Shown piece after piece: positions 3,549-23,207 of a DNA stretch of 64,000 nt. Below the pieces are notes generated by a model. That model saw only the letters and a list, made by a program, of their open reading frames with translations. It ran no database searches and had not been told where the DNA came from. Source of the stretch: Chthoniobacterales bacterium (GTDB lineage: Bacteria; Verrucomicrobiota; Verrucomicrobiia; Chthoniobacterales; UBA10450); assembly GCA_003244145.1 (NCBI GenBank), contig QHBM01000084.1:1-64000 (forward strand), written 5' to 3'. Position numbers and translations under genes: made by a program. Positions within the stretch are counted from its first letter, which is position 1; every line of letters starts with the position of its first letter.

Positions 3549-4133
3549 ATGAGAAAGATTATGTGCCGTGTGTTGGTAGCGTTGTTTACAGTCGGCCTGT
3601 TTTATTCTCCGGCAGTTTCAAGTGCGGGCGGCCCTCCAGATCTCACCGGAAATTGGGTTGGATATTACAACGACGGCAGTAAATCGGAATACGTTTGGGC
3701 CATCCACCAAACGGGTTCGACTCTTTCGATCGAAAACGTCGGGGGTACGCCAGCCAAGTCCAAAGGACGTCTCGAAGGCGATAAAGTTTTTGCGCAAGAC
3801 TTTGCGACCCAGAACGGAAAGCTGTCTGCCGACGGCACAAAGATCACCTGGACGGACGGCGTCGTTTGGAAAAAGTCAGCCAGTGCTGTAAATCTCACCG
3901 GAAATTGGGTTGGATATTACAACGACGGCAGTAAATCGGAATACGTTTGGGCCATCCGCCAAACGGGTTTTACTCTTTCGATCGAGAACGTCGGAGGTAC
4001 GCCAGCCAAGTCGAAAGGACGCGTTGAAGGCGATAAAGTTTTTGCGCAAGACTTTGCGACCCAGAACGGAAAGCTGTCTGCTGACGGCACCAAGATCACC
4101 TGGACGGACGGCGTCGTTTGGAAAAAGCAATAA
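3549..4133 (+). CDS. Secreted protein made of two nearly identical ~80-residue beta domains
   Basis: A 194-residue protein with a signal peptide (MRKIMCRVLVALFTVGLFYSPAVSSAG) followed by two copies of one domain. Each copy starts LTGNWVGYYNDGSKSEYVW and ends DGTKITWTDGVVWKK. Over the aligned part the copies differ at only three residues (His/Arg, Ser/Phe, Leu/Val), so this is a young duplication. The domain alternates short strands with turns and resembles small lipocalin-like or WxG-type beta modules of exported proteins, but I cannot name a family. A good ribosome-binding site (AGGAG, about 10 bp before ATG) supports the start. Either unit alone would make a plausible full-length secreted protein. 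Confidence 0.8.
   Translation: MRKIMCRVLVALFTVGLFYSPAVSSAGGPPDLTGNWVGYYNDGSKSEYVWAIHQTGSTLSIENVGGTPAKSKGRLEGDKVFAQDFATQNGKLSADGTKITWTDGVVWKKSASAVNLTGNWVGYYNDGSKSEYVWAIRQTGFTLSIENVGGTPAKSKGRVEGDKVFAQDFATQNGKLSADGTKITWTDGVVWKKQ
3641..4130 (+). repeat. In-frame tandem duplication, 252-bp period
   Basis: Two DNA copies begin with TCTCACCGGAAATTGG at 3641 and 3893. The copies differ at about a dozen positions over roughly 238 bp (about 95 percent identical), several of them synonymous. The 252-bp offset is exactly 84 codons, so the reading frame is kept. This shows a recent unequal crossover or slippage event within the gene at 3549. Confidence 0.92.
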
Positions 4134-6074: not shown

Positions 6075-7811
6075 ATGCGCGGTCATTACCTGTCCATGTT
6101 CGGCGCAGTGGTGGTATTCGCTGCGACGCCAGGCGCGCGGGGAGGAGTAGCGGACTCGTATCTGAGCACCTACCTCGGGATGTTCCCAACCCGTGCGACG
6201 CAGGCGGGGGATCACGCGTTCGATAGCAAGCTGGAAGATTTTTCGGCGGAACAGCTAAAGCGATGGGTTGAGTTCAACGAGGCAGAACGCGGCCGACTAA
6301 CAAGACTGCTGAGCGCGCCCGATTTGCCATTCGACGATCGGCTTGATGCCGAAGCGTTGCTGGCCCACGTCGAGCGCGAACTGCACCAACAAACCGTGCT
6401 GCGGCGGCCGCAGCGCGATCCGCTCTACTGGTCCGAAGTCATAGCCAACGCGGCGGTCTTTCTCCTGGTGCGCGACGATCTGCCCCTGGCGGAGCGACAG
6501 CAACGCGTGCGAGCACGCGCGCGTTTGTTGCCCGCTTTCTCGCGCCAGGGTAGCGAAACCCTCACGCGAGCGAAAAGCGACGAGGTCGCGCCGGAATTGT
6601 GCAAGATCGCGGTGGGACAGCTGCGCGCCACCGCCACGTTTTACCGGGACGGGTTCGCGCGCGCGGTGGGCGATCAGGCGGAAGCGCGCGACGAAGGCGA
6701 ACAGGCAGCGAAGGCAATATCGGAGCTTGCCGACAACATCGATAAGCTCTCGCAGCACGCGACCGGTTCGCCCAGGCTCGGCCAGGAATACGCCAGAACG
6801 TTTCGTCTGGGCACCGGGATTACTGAACCTGTGGCCGATGTTTTGAAACGGGCGACCTCGGACCTCGCGGCCAAGAGGACGGAAGCCGCGGATTTCGGCC
6901 GCAAGGTTTGGCGGGAATTAATGAAGGATGAAAAGCCGCCGGCGGACGATACCGCTTTGCTGCGCCGACTCTTTGAGCGCGTGGCTGAGGACCGTGACAC
7001 CAACGAGGAGACTTATGCTTCCCGCTGGAAAGCAAACGTTGGTGAGATCGAGAAGTTTGTGCGGGAAAAGCGAATCATGACGCTGCCGGATCCGCTCACC
7101 TTGATGGTGGACCGGGCGCCGGCGTATTTTGTTGGTCAGAGTGTTGGCGGGGTCTATCCGGCCGGAGCCTATTCGCCGGAAGCAAAGACAATTCTCTTTC
7201 TGCCGGTCCCGCCGCACGACGCGACGGCCGGGCAGCGCGAAGCGTTCTTCCGCGATTTTAACCGGCCGTTTAGCCGGATGATTGTGCCGCATGAACTGAT
7301 TCCAGGTCATTACGTGCAGCTCAAGTATGCCGCGCGTCATCCGCACAAGGTGCGCGCGCTATTTCCGGATCCGGTTTACATCGAAGGCTGGGGGACGTTT
7401 TGCGAGCGGCTCTTGCTGGATCAAGGCTGGGGCGGTGCGTTGCCGCGCCTGGCGCATCTCAAGAAGCAACTCGAGAACATCGCCCGCACCATCGTGGACA
7501 TTCGGGTCCACACGGAGAACATGTCGCGCGAGGAGATGACGCGGTTCGTGAAAGAGGAGGCGCTGCAAGGCGAACAGCTGGCTAGTAACATGTGGACGCG
7601 AACCCTGACCAGCTCACCACAGATCACTACCTACTACCTCGGCTATGCGAAAGTGACGGAGGTGTACGACGCTGCTCGCGCGGCCCAACGGGACAAGTTC
7701 GAGCTGCGCCGCTTCATGGATGGAATGATGCGGCTGGGACCGGTCCGGCTCGAACATTATCTAGAGCAAGTACGCACAACCGATTCGCCTGCGGATGATA
7801 GTAAACGCTAG
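6075..7811 (+). CDS. DUF885 family putative zinc metallopeptidase
   Basis: A DUF885 protein of 578 residues. The hallmark is the late HELIPGHYVQ motif, the HExxPGH variant of the metallopeptidase zinc site, followed by an acidic IEGWGTFCERL segment that usually supplies further ligands. MRGHYLSMFGAVVVFAATPGARG at 6075 looks like an export signal and is the preferred start; the tracked start at 6000 adds 25 residues without signal features. The rest is the alpha-helical fold of the family. Members are treated as secreted or periplasmic peptidases, but proven substrates are few. The gene stands alone, convergent with the cyclase gene at 7892. Confidence 0.85.
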   Translation: MRGHYLSMFGAVVVFAATPGARGGVADSYLSTYLGMFPTRATQAGDHAFDSKLEDFSAEQLKRWVEFNEAERGRLTRLLSAPDLPFDDRLDAEALLAHVERELHQQTVLRRPQRDPLYWSEVIANAAVFLLVRDDLPLAERQQRVRARARLLPAFSRQGSETLTRAKSDEVAPELCKIAVGQLRATATFYRDGFARAVGDQAEARDEGEQAAKAISELADNIDKLSQHATGSPRLGQEYARTFRLGTGITEPVADVLKRATSDLAAKRTEAADFGRKVWRELMKDEKPPADDTALLRRLFERVAEDRDTNEETYASRWKANVGEIEKFVREKRIMTLPDPLTLMVDRAPAYFVGQSVGGVYPAGAYSPEAKTILFLPVPPHDATAGQREAFFRDFNRPFSRMIVPHELIPGHYVQLKYAARHPHKVRALFPDPVYIEGWGTFCERLLLDQGWGGALPRLAHLKKQLENIARTIVDIRVHTENMSREEMTRFVKEEALQGEQLASNMWTRTLTSSPQITTYYLGYAKVTEVYDAARAAQRDKFELRRFMDGMMRLGPVRLEHYLEQVRTTDSPADDSKR

Positions 7812-13194: not shown

Positions 13195-14451
13195 TCATGC
13201 GGCTCTATGACGGGTTCGCTCCAAATTAGGTAAGAGCCATGTGAGCAGACCGATGAGAGGGAGGTAGGAGCACACTTGGAAGACGAATGCGATGCTGGTG
13301 TGATCGGCCAAGGCGCCTAAGACTGCGGAACCAATTCCTCCCAATCCGAAGGCTAGACCGAAGAAGAGCCCGGCAATCATCCCGACTCGGCCGGGAACCA
13401 GCTCCTGGGCGTAGACGAGGATAGCTGAGAAGGCCGAGGCCAGGATAAGGCCGATGATCGCGGTGAGAATACCCACCCAAAAGAGGTTCGCGTAAGGCAG
13501 CGCCAAAGCGAACGGCGCCACGCCCAGGATCGAGGCCCAGATTACGCTCTTGCGTCCAATGCGGTCGCCGACCGGGCCGCCTAACAGGGTCCCGGCTGCG
13601 ACCGCGAAAAGGAAAGTGAAGAGATGGAGCTGCGCACTCTGGACCGTGAGTCCGAACTTTCCGATCAGAAAGAAAGTGTAGTAGCTGGACATGCTGGCGA
13701 GATAAAAATATTTGGAAAACACGAGCGCGATCAGGACCGCGAGTGACATTATTACTCGACCGCGAGTCAGGGTCTGAGTCCCCCGTTGTTGAACCGCGGC
13801 AACCTTTCGTTTGTCGGTTAGGTGCGCGCGGTACCAGCGGCCGATGCCGGTGAGCACAGCTATCCCGATCAAAGCCAGGAGAGAGAACCACATCACGGAG
13901 GATTGGCCGCGGGCCACTACGATCAGGGCCGCGAGAAGAGGGCCGAGCGCGCTGCCGGCGTTGCCGCCGACTTGAAAGAGCGATTGGGCAAAGCCGAGTC
14001 GTCCGCCGGAAGCGAGATGCGCGATGCGCGAGGCTTCCGGGTGGAACACCGAAGAGCCGATGCCAACGAAGGCGACAGCGACAAGAACCAAAGCCAGGCT
14101 GCCAGCGAAGGAAAGGAGGATGAGCCCCGCCAAAGTAAATGTCATTCCCGCGGCCAGCGAGTAGGGCTGCGGCCGGCGATCTGTGTAAAGGCCGACGAAT
14201 GGTTGGAGGACTGACGCTGTGAGTTGGTTCGCGAGAGTGATAAGCCCGATGTGAACGAAATCCAGATGAAGGGCGCTCTTGAGAATGGGATAGAGCGACG
14301 GGATCAAGGACTGCATCGCGTCATTGAGCAGGTGAGAGAAGCTTAAGGCCGTCAGCACACCAAGCACCGGAGCAGTGGTCGACGAATCCGGCCTGCCCGA
14401 TTTGGTTTTAAGGTCCGGGACGGAGCCCGGAGCATCAGGCGGAGTGGGCAA
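13195..14451 (-). CDS. MFS exporter, fosmidomycin-resistance (Fsr)-like
   Basis: A 418-residue major facilitator with about 12 transmembrane helices. The opening SFSHLLNDAMQSLIPSLYPILK is characteristic of the Fsr branch, and GDRIGRKSVIW marks the usual loop between helices in the second half. The family exports fosmidomycin and related compounds in Escherichia coli; the natural cargo here is unknown. A 30-residue hydrophilic N-terminus precedes the first helix. A partial copy of its 3' end lies at 12106-12277. An 8-bp/7-bp repeat array begins 25 bp upstream of the start. Confidence 0.88.
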   Translation of the reverse strand: MPTPPDAPGSVPDLKTKSGRPDSSTTAPVLGVLTALSFSHLLNDAMQSLIPSLYPILKSALHLDFVHIGLITLANQLTASVLQPFVGLYTDRRPQPYSLAAGMTFTLAGLILLSFAGSLALVLVAVAFVGIGSSVFHPEASRIAHLASGGRLGFAQSLFQVGGNAGSALGPLLAALIVVARGQSSVMWFSLLALIGIAVLTGIGRWYRAHLTDKRKVAAVQQRGTQTLTRGRVIMSLAVLIALVFSKYFYLASMSSYYTFFLIGKFGLTVQSAQLHLFTFLFAVAAGTLLGGPVGDRIGRKSVIWASILGVAPFALALPYANLFWVGILTAIIGLILASAFSAILVYAQELVPGRVGMIAGLFFGLAFGLGGIGSAVLGALADHTSIAFVFQVCSYLPLIGLLTWLLPNLERTRHRAA

Positions 14452-16712: not shown

Positions 16713-17246
16713 TTAATCCTGTAAATCCTGTCCAAGGATCTTCACGACTTTCTCGATCGTGTTCCAATTGCGCGTGGTGACCGGCACACCCAGTAGCTTC
16801 TCGATCTTACCCAGGTAGCTGATCGCTTTCATCTCCCGCCGATACAGACCCAGGACGAACCTGTCCTGGATCGCAATGACCTTCAAAAGCCAATCGTCCT
16901 CCGAAGGCAAACTAAGAGGAATAGGAGGCAGTGTGCGAAGTGGTTTGTGTAACACGTTCACGAACCGAGTTATGTTGGGGCCCGAGGGTTCCCGTGAGAA
17001 TGGATCCTTTGCCGCGAGTTTGATGATGTCGCGCGCGGGACAGATCATGATCTCGCATTTGAACGGCAACTTGCGAGCAATCGCGGCGCGCAGAACCGAT
17101 TCGCTCACCACTTCGCGCACCACGAACGTCCCGACCGCGCCAATGTTCACGAGCCCGAACTTCGACAGCTCCTTGGCTATGGCTGCCGGCCGGCACAGGT
17201 TCGCCCCACCGACGTTCACCGCACGAAGAAAGACGACTGAGGGCAC
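16713..17246 (-). CDS. DUF1697 family protein, non-ATG start
   Basis: A DUF1697 protein of about 178 residues. The hallmark opening is VVFLRAVNVGGANLCRPAAIAKELSKFGLVNIGAVGTFVV, where most family members have INVGG and a SGNVVF-like strand. No ATG is available at the family start; a GTG at 17246 (or TTG at 17252) gives VPSVVFLRAVNVGG. The tracked ORF starting at 17450 reads through a repeat array and is too long. The function of DUF1697 is unknown; it is a small cytoplasmic alpha/beta protein. The start codon is immediately followed upstream by the heptamer array at 17254-17295. Confidence 0.75.
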   Translation of the reverse strand: MPSVVFLRAVNVGGANLCRPAAIAKELSKFGLVNIGAVGTFVVREVVSESVLRAAIARKLPFKCEIMICPARDIIKLAAKDPFSREPSGPNITRFVNVLHKPLRTLPPIPLSLPSEDDWLLKVIAIQDRFVLGLYRREMKAISYLGKIEKLLGVPVTTRNWNTIEKVVKILGQDLQD

Positions 17247-17253
17247 GGGCAAA

Positions 17254-17295
17254 TTAGAAAGTAGAAAGTGGAAGGTGGAAGGTGGAAAGTGGAAA
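17254..17295. repeat. Heptanucleotide tandem array, six units
   Basis: Units TTAGAAA, GTAGAAA, GTGGAAG twice and GTGGAAA twice form a perfect 7-bp period. Neighbouring units are identical in pairs, which points to stepwise duplication. On the minus strand the array is a pyrimidine tract just upstream of the DUF1697 start. Confidence 0.85.
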
Positions 17296-17357: not shown

Positions 17358-17534
17358 TTTTGGCGCGAGAACAAGAAAGTAATCTTGAGGATTTCCGCCG
17401 ACAACAAACCGAATCTCGCCGGTGGTCCCCATTGGACAGCGGAGCTGCACGCGGTCTGGAATCTCGACACCGCCAGGTTCGAGACCGTGGATTTCAAGCC
17501 GGGGAAGATCTCCGACCGTCCCTGGCTTCGGTAG
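17358..17534 (+). pseudogene. Possible C-terminal gene fragment
   Basis: Between a TGA at 17355-17357 and the TAG at 17532-17534 one frame reads FWRENKKVILRIS, then GGPHWTAELHAVWNLDTARFE, ending DRPWLR. The composition and strand-like pattern look protein-coding, unlike the two overlapping tracked frames. There is no start codon and no upstream continuation, so it would be a decayed 3' end. I do not recognise a family. Confidence 0.3.
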
Positions 17535-17617
17535 AAGAGAGGGAACGGTCGCAAACCGGCGGGGATGTTTTCAACTCCGCTCTTGTTTGTCGGCGCAGCG
17601 CCGGGTAGTTAATCGCG

Positions 17618-21144: not shown

Positions 21145-21633
21145 CTATCCATTCTCCTCAAACTCGCCGCGCTCGCGATTTTTTCGGACCCGGTCCCACG
21201 GAAAACATTTGCCGTTCATAGCGAGGTAAACTCCGGCGGGCAGCACCTGCACGAATGAGAGCGCACTGCCAAGATTGAAGAGACCGTCGGAGCTGCCAAA
21301 GGCGTAAGGAATCATCGCGCCGGTGAGCACGATGGTTTTTCCCGTGACGGCGCGGGCCAGCGCGGCGGCGGTTTCCGTCATCGTGTCGGTGCCGTGAGTA
21401 ATCACGATGCGATCCTCCTCGGCCCCGAGGCAATTCTGCACGATGAGCGCGCGATCGGCATCGGTCATTTCGAGACTGTCGATCATCATCACGGTGCGGA
21501 TGGTGACCTCCACGCGCGAACGTCCCAGCCGGAGCATCTCGGCCACGTGGGTATCCTTGAAGAAGAGCTGTCCGTCGCGTTCGTTGTATTCCTTATCGAA
21601 CGTGCCGCCGGAGACGAGGATTCGGATGGACAT
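21145..21633 (-). CDS. Single-domain asparaginase-like protein
   Basis: A 162-residue protein covering only the N-terminal domain of type I/II asparaginases (full enzymes are about 330 residues). It retains the first catalytic motif in SGGTFDKEY (Thr) and the second in ITHGTDTMTETAA (Thr-Asp), plus VLTGAMIP. It ends at GEFEENG with no trace of the C-terminal domain that completes the active site across the dimer. Short asparaginase-domain proteins of this size are found in other bacteria and may hydrolyse other amides or have lost activity. The start ATG is two bases from a heptamer array. Confidence 0.82.
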   Translation of the reverse strand: MSIRILVSGGTFDKEYNERDGQLFFKDTHVAEMLRLGRSRVEVTIRTVMMIDSLEMTDADRALIVQNCLGAEEDRIVITHGTDTMTETAAALARAVTGKTIVLTGAMIPYAFGSSDGLFNLGSALSFVQVLPAGVYLAMNGKCFPWDRVRKNRERGEFEENG

Positions 21634-21635
21634 AG

Positions 21636-21663
21636 GGTCGGAAGTCAGAGATCGGAGGAGAGT
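21636..21663. repeat. Heptanucleotide array at a truncated gene and a start codon
   Basis: Units GGTCGGA, AGTCAGA, GATCGGA and GGAGAGT lie between the asparaginase start (21633) and the broken SIMPL gene. The SIMPL reading frame runs into this array and stops there. Confidence 0.75.
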
Positions 21664-21818
21664 CGGGCCCTCAACCGATCGAAACGCAGGGTCACCATGT
21701 CTGCGGGCTTTTCGATTTCGGCTTTCCCTTCGACGTAGATATACGGCTTATCGGGCAATCCGCCTTGGGCGAACAGCGACAGGGGCAGACACAGGCACGC
21801 GAGGAGAACAAGTTTCAT
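21645..21818 (-). pseudogene. Truncated SIMPL/DUF541 gene (signal peptide plus first strands)
   Basis: The frame from the ATG at 21818 encodes a signal peptide MKLVLLACLCLPLSLFAQG and then YIYVEGKAEIEKPADMVTLRFD, the typical start of SIMPL (DUF541) domain proteins. After only 57 codons it ends in sequence derived from the heptamer array. Full family members are over 200 residues, so the gene is cut off. The tracked ORF starting at 22685 joins this frame to an antisense reading of the aminotransferase gene. Confidence 0.72.
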
Positions 21819-22022
21819 ATGGCCGAAGAGTGTCCGAATCGGAGGCTGCCTGCAAGACTTGGCTCGGTCGACATTGGATTCCCTGGGCTGTGTTAATGCG
21901 CGAAACTCACTGACTACTTCAGCGTAATCTCGCGCCCCACGGTCAACAGCTGCGTGGAGAGAAGGCTGACATTTGACAAAAGACAAGACGCGCCAGCGCG
22001 CTATAATGCTCGTTTCGTCGTC

Positions 22023-23207
22023 ATGAATAAGAACCTCGATCTCCGTCTCGCCAGGCGCATGGCGCGTCTCGGCACGGAGACCGCGTTCGAGGTCCTGGTG
22101 AAAGCGCGAGCGCTCGAGGCCACGGGCCGCGACATCGTCCATCTCGAAATCGGGGAGCCTGATTTCGATACCCCGGAAAATATTATCTCTGCGGCGACGG
22201 ACGCGTTGCACAAGGGCTTCACCCACTACGGACCCTCGGCCGGTTTGCCCCAGCTGCGTGAGACCATCGCGCAGTACGTGACTGAGACGCGCCAGGTAAA
22301 AGCGACGCCGGAAGAAGTGGTCGTTGTCCCCGGCGGCAAGCCGATCATTTTTTTCGTTATTCTGGCGCTGGCCGAAGAAGGGGATGAAGTCATTTACCCG
22401 AATCCCGGATTCCCGATCTATGAGTCGATGATCAATTACGTCGGCGCGAAAGCCGTGCCGATCCGGTTGCGCGAGGAGATGGATTTCCGGCTTGACGTCG
22501 GCGAGCTCGCCCGGCTGATCAACGACCGCACGAAGCTCATCATTCTGAATTCGCCGCAGAACCCGACCGGCGGCATGCTGACGAAGGAAGACATCGACGG
22601 CATCGCGCGCGCCATCGGCGACCGCAACATCATGGTGTTGACCGACGAGATCTACAGCCGCCTCATCTTCGAAGGCGAGCATCATTCGATCATGTCAGTC
22701 GACGGAATGCAGGAGCGCTCCATTTTGCTCGACGGTTTCTCCAAGACCTACGCCATGACTGGCTGGCGGATGGGCTACGGCGTGATGCGCGCCGACCTGG
22801 CGATGCACGTCGCGCGGTTGATGACTAACTCCAACTCCTGTACCGCGAGCTTCACCCAAGTCGCCGGCATTGAAGCGCTCCGCGGACCGCAGGCCTCGGT
22901 CGAGGCGATGTGCGCCGAGTTCAAGAAGCGGCGCGACATCATGGTTGCCGGCCTGAACCAGATCAAAGGTTTCTCCTGTCGCTTGCCCAAGGGCGCGTTC
23001 TACGTTTTCCCCAATATCAAAGAAACCGGGTGGCCATCGAAGAAACTGGCCGACGCGTTGCTCGACGACGCCGGAGTCGCTGGATTGTCGGGGACGGCGT
23101 TTGGCGATTTCGGCGAAGGCTATTTGCGATTCAGCGTGGCGAACTCAATCGAGAACATCGAGAAGGCGCTCGATCGCGTCGGTGCGTGGGCGAAGAAGAA
23201 TCTTTGA
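22023..23207 (+). CDS. PLP-dependent class I/II aminotransferase
   Basis: A 394-residue aminotransferase of the aspartate-aminotransferase fold. The pyridoxal phosphate lysine lies in DGFSKTYAMTGWRMGY, and the cofactor-binding Asp/Tyr in VLTDEIYSRLIF. The substrate carboxylate Arg is expected in the C-terminal YLRFSVAN. HLEIGEPDFDTPENI and NSPQNPTGGML are typical. The start MNKNLDLRLARRM is chosen because the tracked upstream 23 residues include AT-rich leader DNA. Specificity (aspartate, aromatic, alanine) cannot be read off. A 2-hydroxyacid dehydrogenase follows 24 bp downstream, which suggests linked amino acid/2-oxoacid conversion. Confidence 0.9.
   Translation: MNKNLDLRLARRMARLGTETAFEVLVKARALEATGRDIVHLEIGEPDFDTPENIISAATDALHKGFTHYGPSAGLPQLRETIAQYVTETRQVKATPEEVVVVPGGKPIIFFVILALAEEGDEVIYPNPGFPIYESMINYVGAKAVPIRLREEMDFRLDVGELARLINDRTKLIILNSPQNPTGGMLTKEDIDGIARAIGDRNIMVLTDEIYSRLIFEGEHHSIMSVDGMQERSILLDGFSKTYAMTGWRMGYGVMRADLAMHVARLMTNSNSCTASFTQVAGIEALRGPQASVEAMCAEFKKRRDIMVAGLNQIKGFSCRLPKGAFYVFPNIKETGWPSKKLADALLDDAGVAGLSGTAFGDFGEGYLRFSVANSIENIEKALDRVGAWAKKNL

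Follow-up and report, generated by a model that had tools for sequence, protein, structure and literature searches.

In the genome of a soil Verrucomicrobium, a short L-asparaginase-like gene is preceded by a tandem array of 7-nt units and by the 5' end of a SIMPL gene, which raises the question of how the start of one gene came to lie directly ahead of another, and of what part the array played in this. The window analyzed here is the whole stretch of 64,000 nucleotides (G000:C65:1-64000) from a draft genome of 3.63 Mb in 173 contigs with an assembly completeness of 88%. Its congeners are, according to matching contigs, metagenome-assembled Spartobacteria/Chthoniobacterales that share about 80-90% DNA identity with G000 across the genes compared, and gene order around 21636-21967 is locally scrambled between these congeners.

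A SIMPL remnant ahead of the asparaginase gene

The asparaginase gene (21145..21633, minus strand) encodes an intact 162-residue protein carrying the N-terminal domain of PF00710 (E 3.4e-26) that is 86-93% identical in 7/7 congeners. In nearly all congeners the homology to it ends at 21633-21636, and in G001 a few bases earlier. The array (21636..21656) abuts the start of this gene and is followed by about 22 bp of junction DNA without homology (21657..21678) and by a SIMPL-homologous block on the minus strand (21679..21864), such that asparaginase homology, array and SIMPL homology succeed one another within 43 bp. The block comprises a putative promoter region, the start codon and 47 codons, with 80% DNA identity to the SIMPL gene of G002.

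The truncated SIMPL gene that the initial annotation had recognized from a signal peptide and family start is real. Its open reading frame (21818..21645, minus strand; MKLVLLACLCLPLSLFAQGGLPDKPYIYVEGKAEIEKPADMVTLRFDRLRARLSSDL and a stop) spans 57 codons, of which 47 are SIMPL-homologous and the last 10 are encoded by the junction and the array; it begins with a signal-peptide-like segment and closes with a TGA located 11 nt ahead of the asparaginase ATG. The first 47 codons share 86-91% residue identity with the N-terminus of the intact PF04402 proteins of G002 and G005, and the match to the G002 protein (residues 1-48, 88% identity, E 4.5e-21) establishes descent from an intact SIMPL gene. 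Like members of the SIMPL/DUF541 family (PF04402; E. coli YggE, Brucella BP26), the remnant has a signal peptide and the family's first strand, but it retains only about 20 of the 205 model positions and is not a working member: the 57-residue product falls short of the family-model cut-off, with matches to 0 Pfam families. PF04402 yields zero matches in G000, and a search with the full-length G002 SIMPL as query found no further piece of the gene anywhere in the assembly. About 80% of the gene is thus missing; at an assembly completeness of 88%, the loss of this remainder is probable rather than certain. Codon conservation in the remnant relative to G002 (dN 0.07, dS 0.89 over 46 codons) would be expected if the truncation is young or if the frame is kept as a leader, and a young age alone may account for it.

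The proposal that the gene was cut inside the array holds only for the stop codon of the reading frame. When the intact SIMPL genes of relatives are mapped onto the window, the DNA match ends sharply at 21679 (G002, G005, G007:C24) or 21677 (G007:C15), about 16-22 bp outside the array, and the SIMPL gene was therefore cut beside the array and not within it.

On its other side, the SIMPL block is separated by a segment of about 103 bp (21865..21967), without a match in the genus, from a class I aminotransferase gene and its conserved leader (21968..23207, plus strand). This segment was considered as a possible gene end (terminating in STQLLTVGREITLK and a stop), and this candidate also had no match in the genus. 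The aminotransferase is the divergent neighbor of the asparaginase gene in G001 as well, where the two genes are adjacent, about 124 bp apart, without SIMPL between them. In G007 it is a near-neighbor, separated from the asparaginase gene by two small genes (putatively sigma-factor-like and membrane-protein-like, as read from their sequence), neither of them SIMPL. The SIMPL gene itself lies 27 kb from the asparaginase gene in G002 and 6 kb away in G005. No relative seen carries SIMPL between asparaginase and aminotransferase, and no relative seen shows an intermediate state. The arrangement in relatives therefore indicates that, in the window, the interval 21637-21967 has been replaced by the array, the SIMPL 5' block and some 103 bp. 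The junction does contain the array, as the initial annotation stated, but a single deletion in situ is not supported, because no relative seen has SIMPL between these genes. Either a whole SIMPL gene may have been inserted and then cut, or its 5' end alone may have been inserted.

Upstream elements and a proposed promoter capture

The asparaginase gene is preceded by ATTGC(G)..N17..(A/G)CG(C/T)TA(G/A)CTTCG in G001, G002, G004, G005, G006 and the family member L124, and by weaker versions of this element in G007, L126 and L127. The shared element, ATTGC(G)-about 17 nt-TAGCTTCG (core TTGC(G)-N17-TAGCTT), is built like a sigma70-type promoter. In the congener stretches, this motif together with its context lies nowhere but before asparaginase. 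In agreement with sigma70-type promoters, TTG and TAxxxT are most often spaced by 23-24 nt upstream of genes, a peak that coding sequence does not show and to which the asparaginase orthologs themselves contribute. Since scanning the window and the loci of six relatives against Rfam gave no match, the conserved element corresponds to no known RNA.

This element is absent from the window. The SIMPL homology block begins instead in a conserved TTG(C/A)AG-N17-CAxxCT element, represented here by TTGCAG-N17-CACTCT (21827..21855, minus strand), the position of which is conserved in six SIMPL genes and and no other conserved promoter-like element was found on the asparaginase strand. As a point against a promoter here, a consensus scan of the locus returned only the promoter-like site of the aminotransferase. 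As judged from their form and conservation, the putative native promoter of asparaginase has been lost or displaced, and the putative promoter of another gene now lies upstream on the same strand.

The explanation we favor, at about an even chance, is that the 5' end of SIMPL replaced the native promoter region of asparaginase in a promoter and leader capture that the array did not necessarily cause. The SIMPL gene is truncated, the rest of it is absent from the assembly, the native upstream element is missing, and the SIMPL element is kept on the asparaginase strand. We infer the following order of events: a rearrangement would have exchanged the asparaginase promoter region for the SIMPL promoter and 47 codons in the same orientation, the remainder of SIMPL would have been lost, and the SIMPL promoter would now probably drive asparaginase, which follows a remnant frame of 57 codons. 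Reinitiation at asparaginase across the 11-nt gap is uncertain; for distances of +11 to +20 nt, translational coupling has been reported to vary from gene to gene (PMC10666635).

Experimental evolution has yielded cases of promoter capture by rearrangement, as in the wrinkly spreaders of Pseudomonas fluorescens (PMC4395868). The window shares with such captures and with gene fusions born of deletion (PMC4395868; PMC12803068, preprint) the placement of a promoter and 5' end before another gene on the same strand and the loss of the intervening DNA. It differs from them in that there is no in-frame fusion, in that the case is known from sequence alone, and in that SIMPL next to asparaginase is the ancestral arrangement in no relative seen. 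Promoter capture would put a local account that can be tested in place of the attractive but unsupported rule that arrays mark repair scars: as one gene died, another took over its promoter while its own product stayed the same.

Heptamer arrays in the window and in its relatives

The array before asparaginase (plus strand) consists of three units, GGTCGGA AGTCAGA GATCGGA, of an RRTCRGA family. It lies below the reach of TRF (score 40) and of a lag-7 scan, its best window has p~0.08, and its assignment to a family of tandem 7-nt units beyond chance comes from the genus: RRTCRGA x3 has 48 matches in 6/8 congeneric genomes against 0 for a reversed control pattern, and 69 period-7 arrays were found at score 20 against 0-2 expected in second-order Markov sequence, with period 8 nearly absent. 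L124 has an array immediately before asparaginase and no SIMPL there (p 0.004), and L127 likewise has a degenerate array directly or closely before the gene (p 0.013). Conversely, a full SIMPL gene in G005 is followed just past its end by an array built from a different heptamer and then by DUF1697. These two arrangements are part of what the initial annotation had named as evidence against its own proposal, and the array looks like an ordinary gene-proximal heptamer array of this group; it does not mark the event and need not have been its cause.

We found no paper on heptamer arrays in Verrucomicrobiota in the literature searched. Another heptamer repeat has been reported to form intergenic arrays near start codons (PMC4679880). 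The arrays described here resemble TAACTGA in Beggiatoaceae (PMC4679880) and GGGAATC/GGGGAYT in Xanthomonas and Nostoc (PMC4692102) in being short 7-nt tandem arrays that are mostly intergenic and often directly 5' of start codons. As in those repeats, their presence varies between relatives at unchanged gene order, but here there are many unit families per genome and the units are not G-quadruplex.

Several further features were observed in the genus. At one conserved intergenic site, arrays form inverted pairs (G004:C15:28089-28280, G005:C20:203507-203645, G006:C28:53192-53344), with both arms apparently GGAGCTT-like in G006 and ACGTCCA in G004 and G005, as if the arms changed in concert. 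Arrays also share one position 5' of a conserved leader (G004:C15:40722-40775, G006:C28:63748-63813, G005:C20:210487-210573); this leader is by its look a candidate TPP riboswitch, and the units vary by species (TACTTTC, TTACTTC). Elsewhere in the window, a C-terminal remnant of a secreted-looking protein (17397-17540, plus strand) has a longer relative in G003:C15, the rest of the gene being missing, with an array end about 94 bp away. Positions 3640-4127 hold a tandem duplication, the 252-bp unit of which is repeated at 95% identity.

Alternative explanations

In the view that goes back to the initial annotation, arrays mark, or cause, recombination and repair junctions, and the array before asparaginase would be a scar left when a deletion truncated SIMPL. 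The close succession of asparaginase homology, array and SIMPL homology is in keeping with this, as is the presence of Ku in the genome and its family. Furthermore, across seven congeneric contigs (847 kb, the contig stretches from 7 congeners on which the array statistics are based), gene adjacency is conserved in a smaller share of comparisons for intervals with an array (0.40) than for array-free intervals (0.51). After stratification by interval length, however, the difference amounts to -0.05 (p=0.26), that is, no significant enrichment of arrays at synteny breaks. Broken ends of gene fragments do not lie near arrays either (0/60 within 30 bp and 1/60 within 60 bp, compared to 1.4% and 1.9% of random non-genic points), and the G007 SIMPL gene, broken at its C-terminus by an apparent frameshift, has no array at the break. 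Arrays are gained and lost at intact gene order, as seen in alignments and in 22/32 comparisons with conserved adjacency, where an array present in one species is missing in the other.

The two other loci cited for the same rule fare no better. The supposed MFS remnant is a full-length gene (14451..13195; residues 1-415 of 418 aligned to orthologs), and DUF1697 (16713-17251), taken as a fragment next to the array at 17254, is full length with a GTG start, even though a true remnant, that at 17397-17540, lies close by. Heptamer repeats in Xanthomonas and Nostoc have moreover been reported in regions of increased stability (PMC4692102). Ku is found in nearly the whole family, most genomes of which hold two Ku genes, but array density does not track it: arrays per 100 kb number 2.8 in the family, 0 in members of the order with Ku, 1.6 in those without Ku and 8.2 in the genus, which lends no support to a dependence on Ku in this small sample of 21 family and order genomes. 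A role of arrays as recombination or repair scars is thus not supported in the sample tested, the limited power of which would allow a modest association with breakpoints, and for the present locus we regard a scar as unlikely. That arrays appear and disappear while gene order stays the same also narrows the possible accounts of their origin.

A better contender, which we rate as possible yet clearly less probable than promoter capture, is that the SIMPL remnant is neutral debris in decay, with asparaginase read from some other weak promoter or poorly expressed and the array incidental. In line with decay, several congeners have lost SIMPL or carry a broken copy, and the segment 21865-21967 lacks homology, but the retention of both promoter element and reading frame, the intact and conserved asparaginase, and the fact that the sole conserved promoter-like element on its strand is that of SIMPL argue against mere debris. 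It is also conceivable, at a low probability, that the asparaginase and SIMPL ends were joined by end joining and that a polymerase copied the array as filler from a template such as G000:C13, where the 25-nt array core and edges, AGGGTCGGAAGTCAGAGATCGGAGG, recur identically (6451-6475, L116) before an unrelated gene. The two Ku genes of G000 and the longer exact matches shared by arrays within genomes than between genomes (p 0.0005) would accord with such copying; against it, some long matches are to be expected among degenerate units that belong to one family, a species-specific preference for certain units also explains the sharing within genomes, and copying between the two arrays may have run in either direction. 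The broader proposal that Verrucomicrobiota arrays are copied between loci as filler in Ku-type end joining, with the G000:C13 array as the template here, is accordingly just as improbable. As an observation on that copy itself, it precedes an antitoxin-like ORF (putative family). A misjoined SIMPL piece is a concern in any draft of 173 contigs, but we consider an assembly chimera extremely improbable, since the genes flanking the remnant are neighbors in G001 and near-neighbors in G007 and a chimera would need two false joins.
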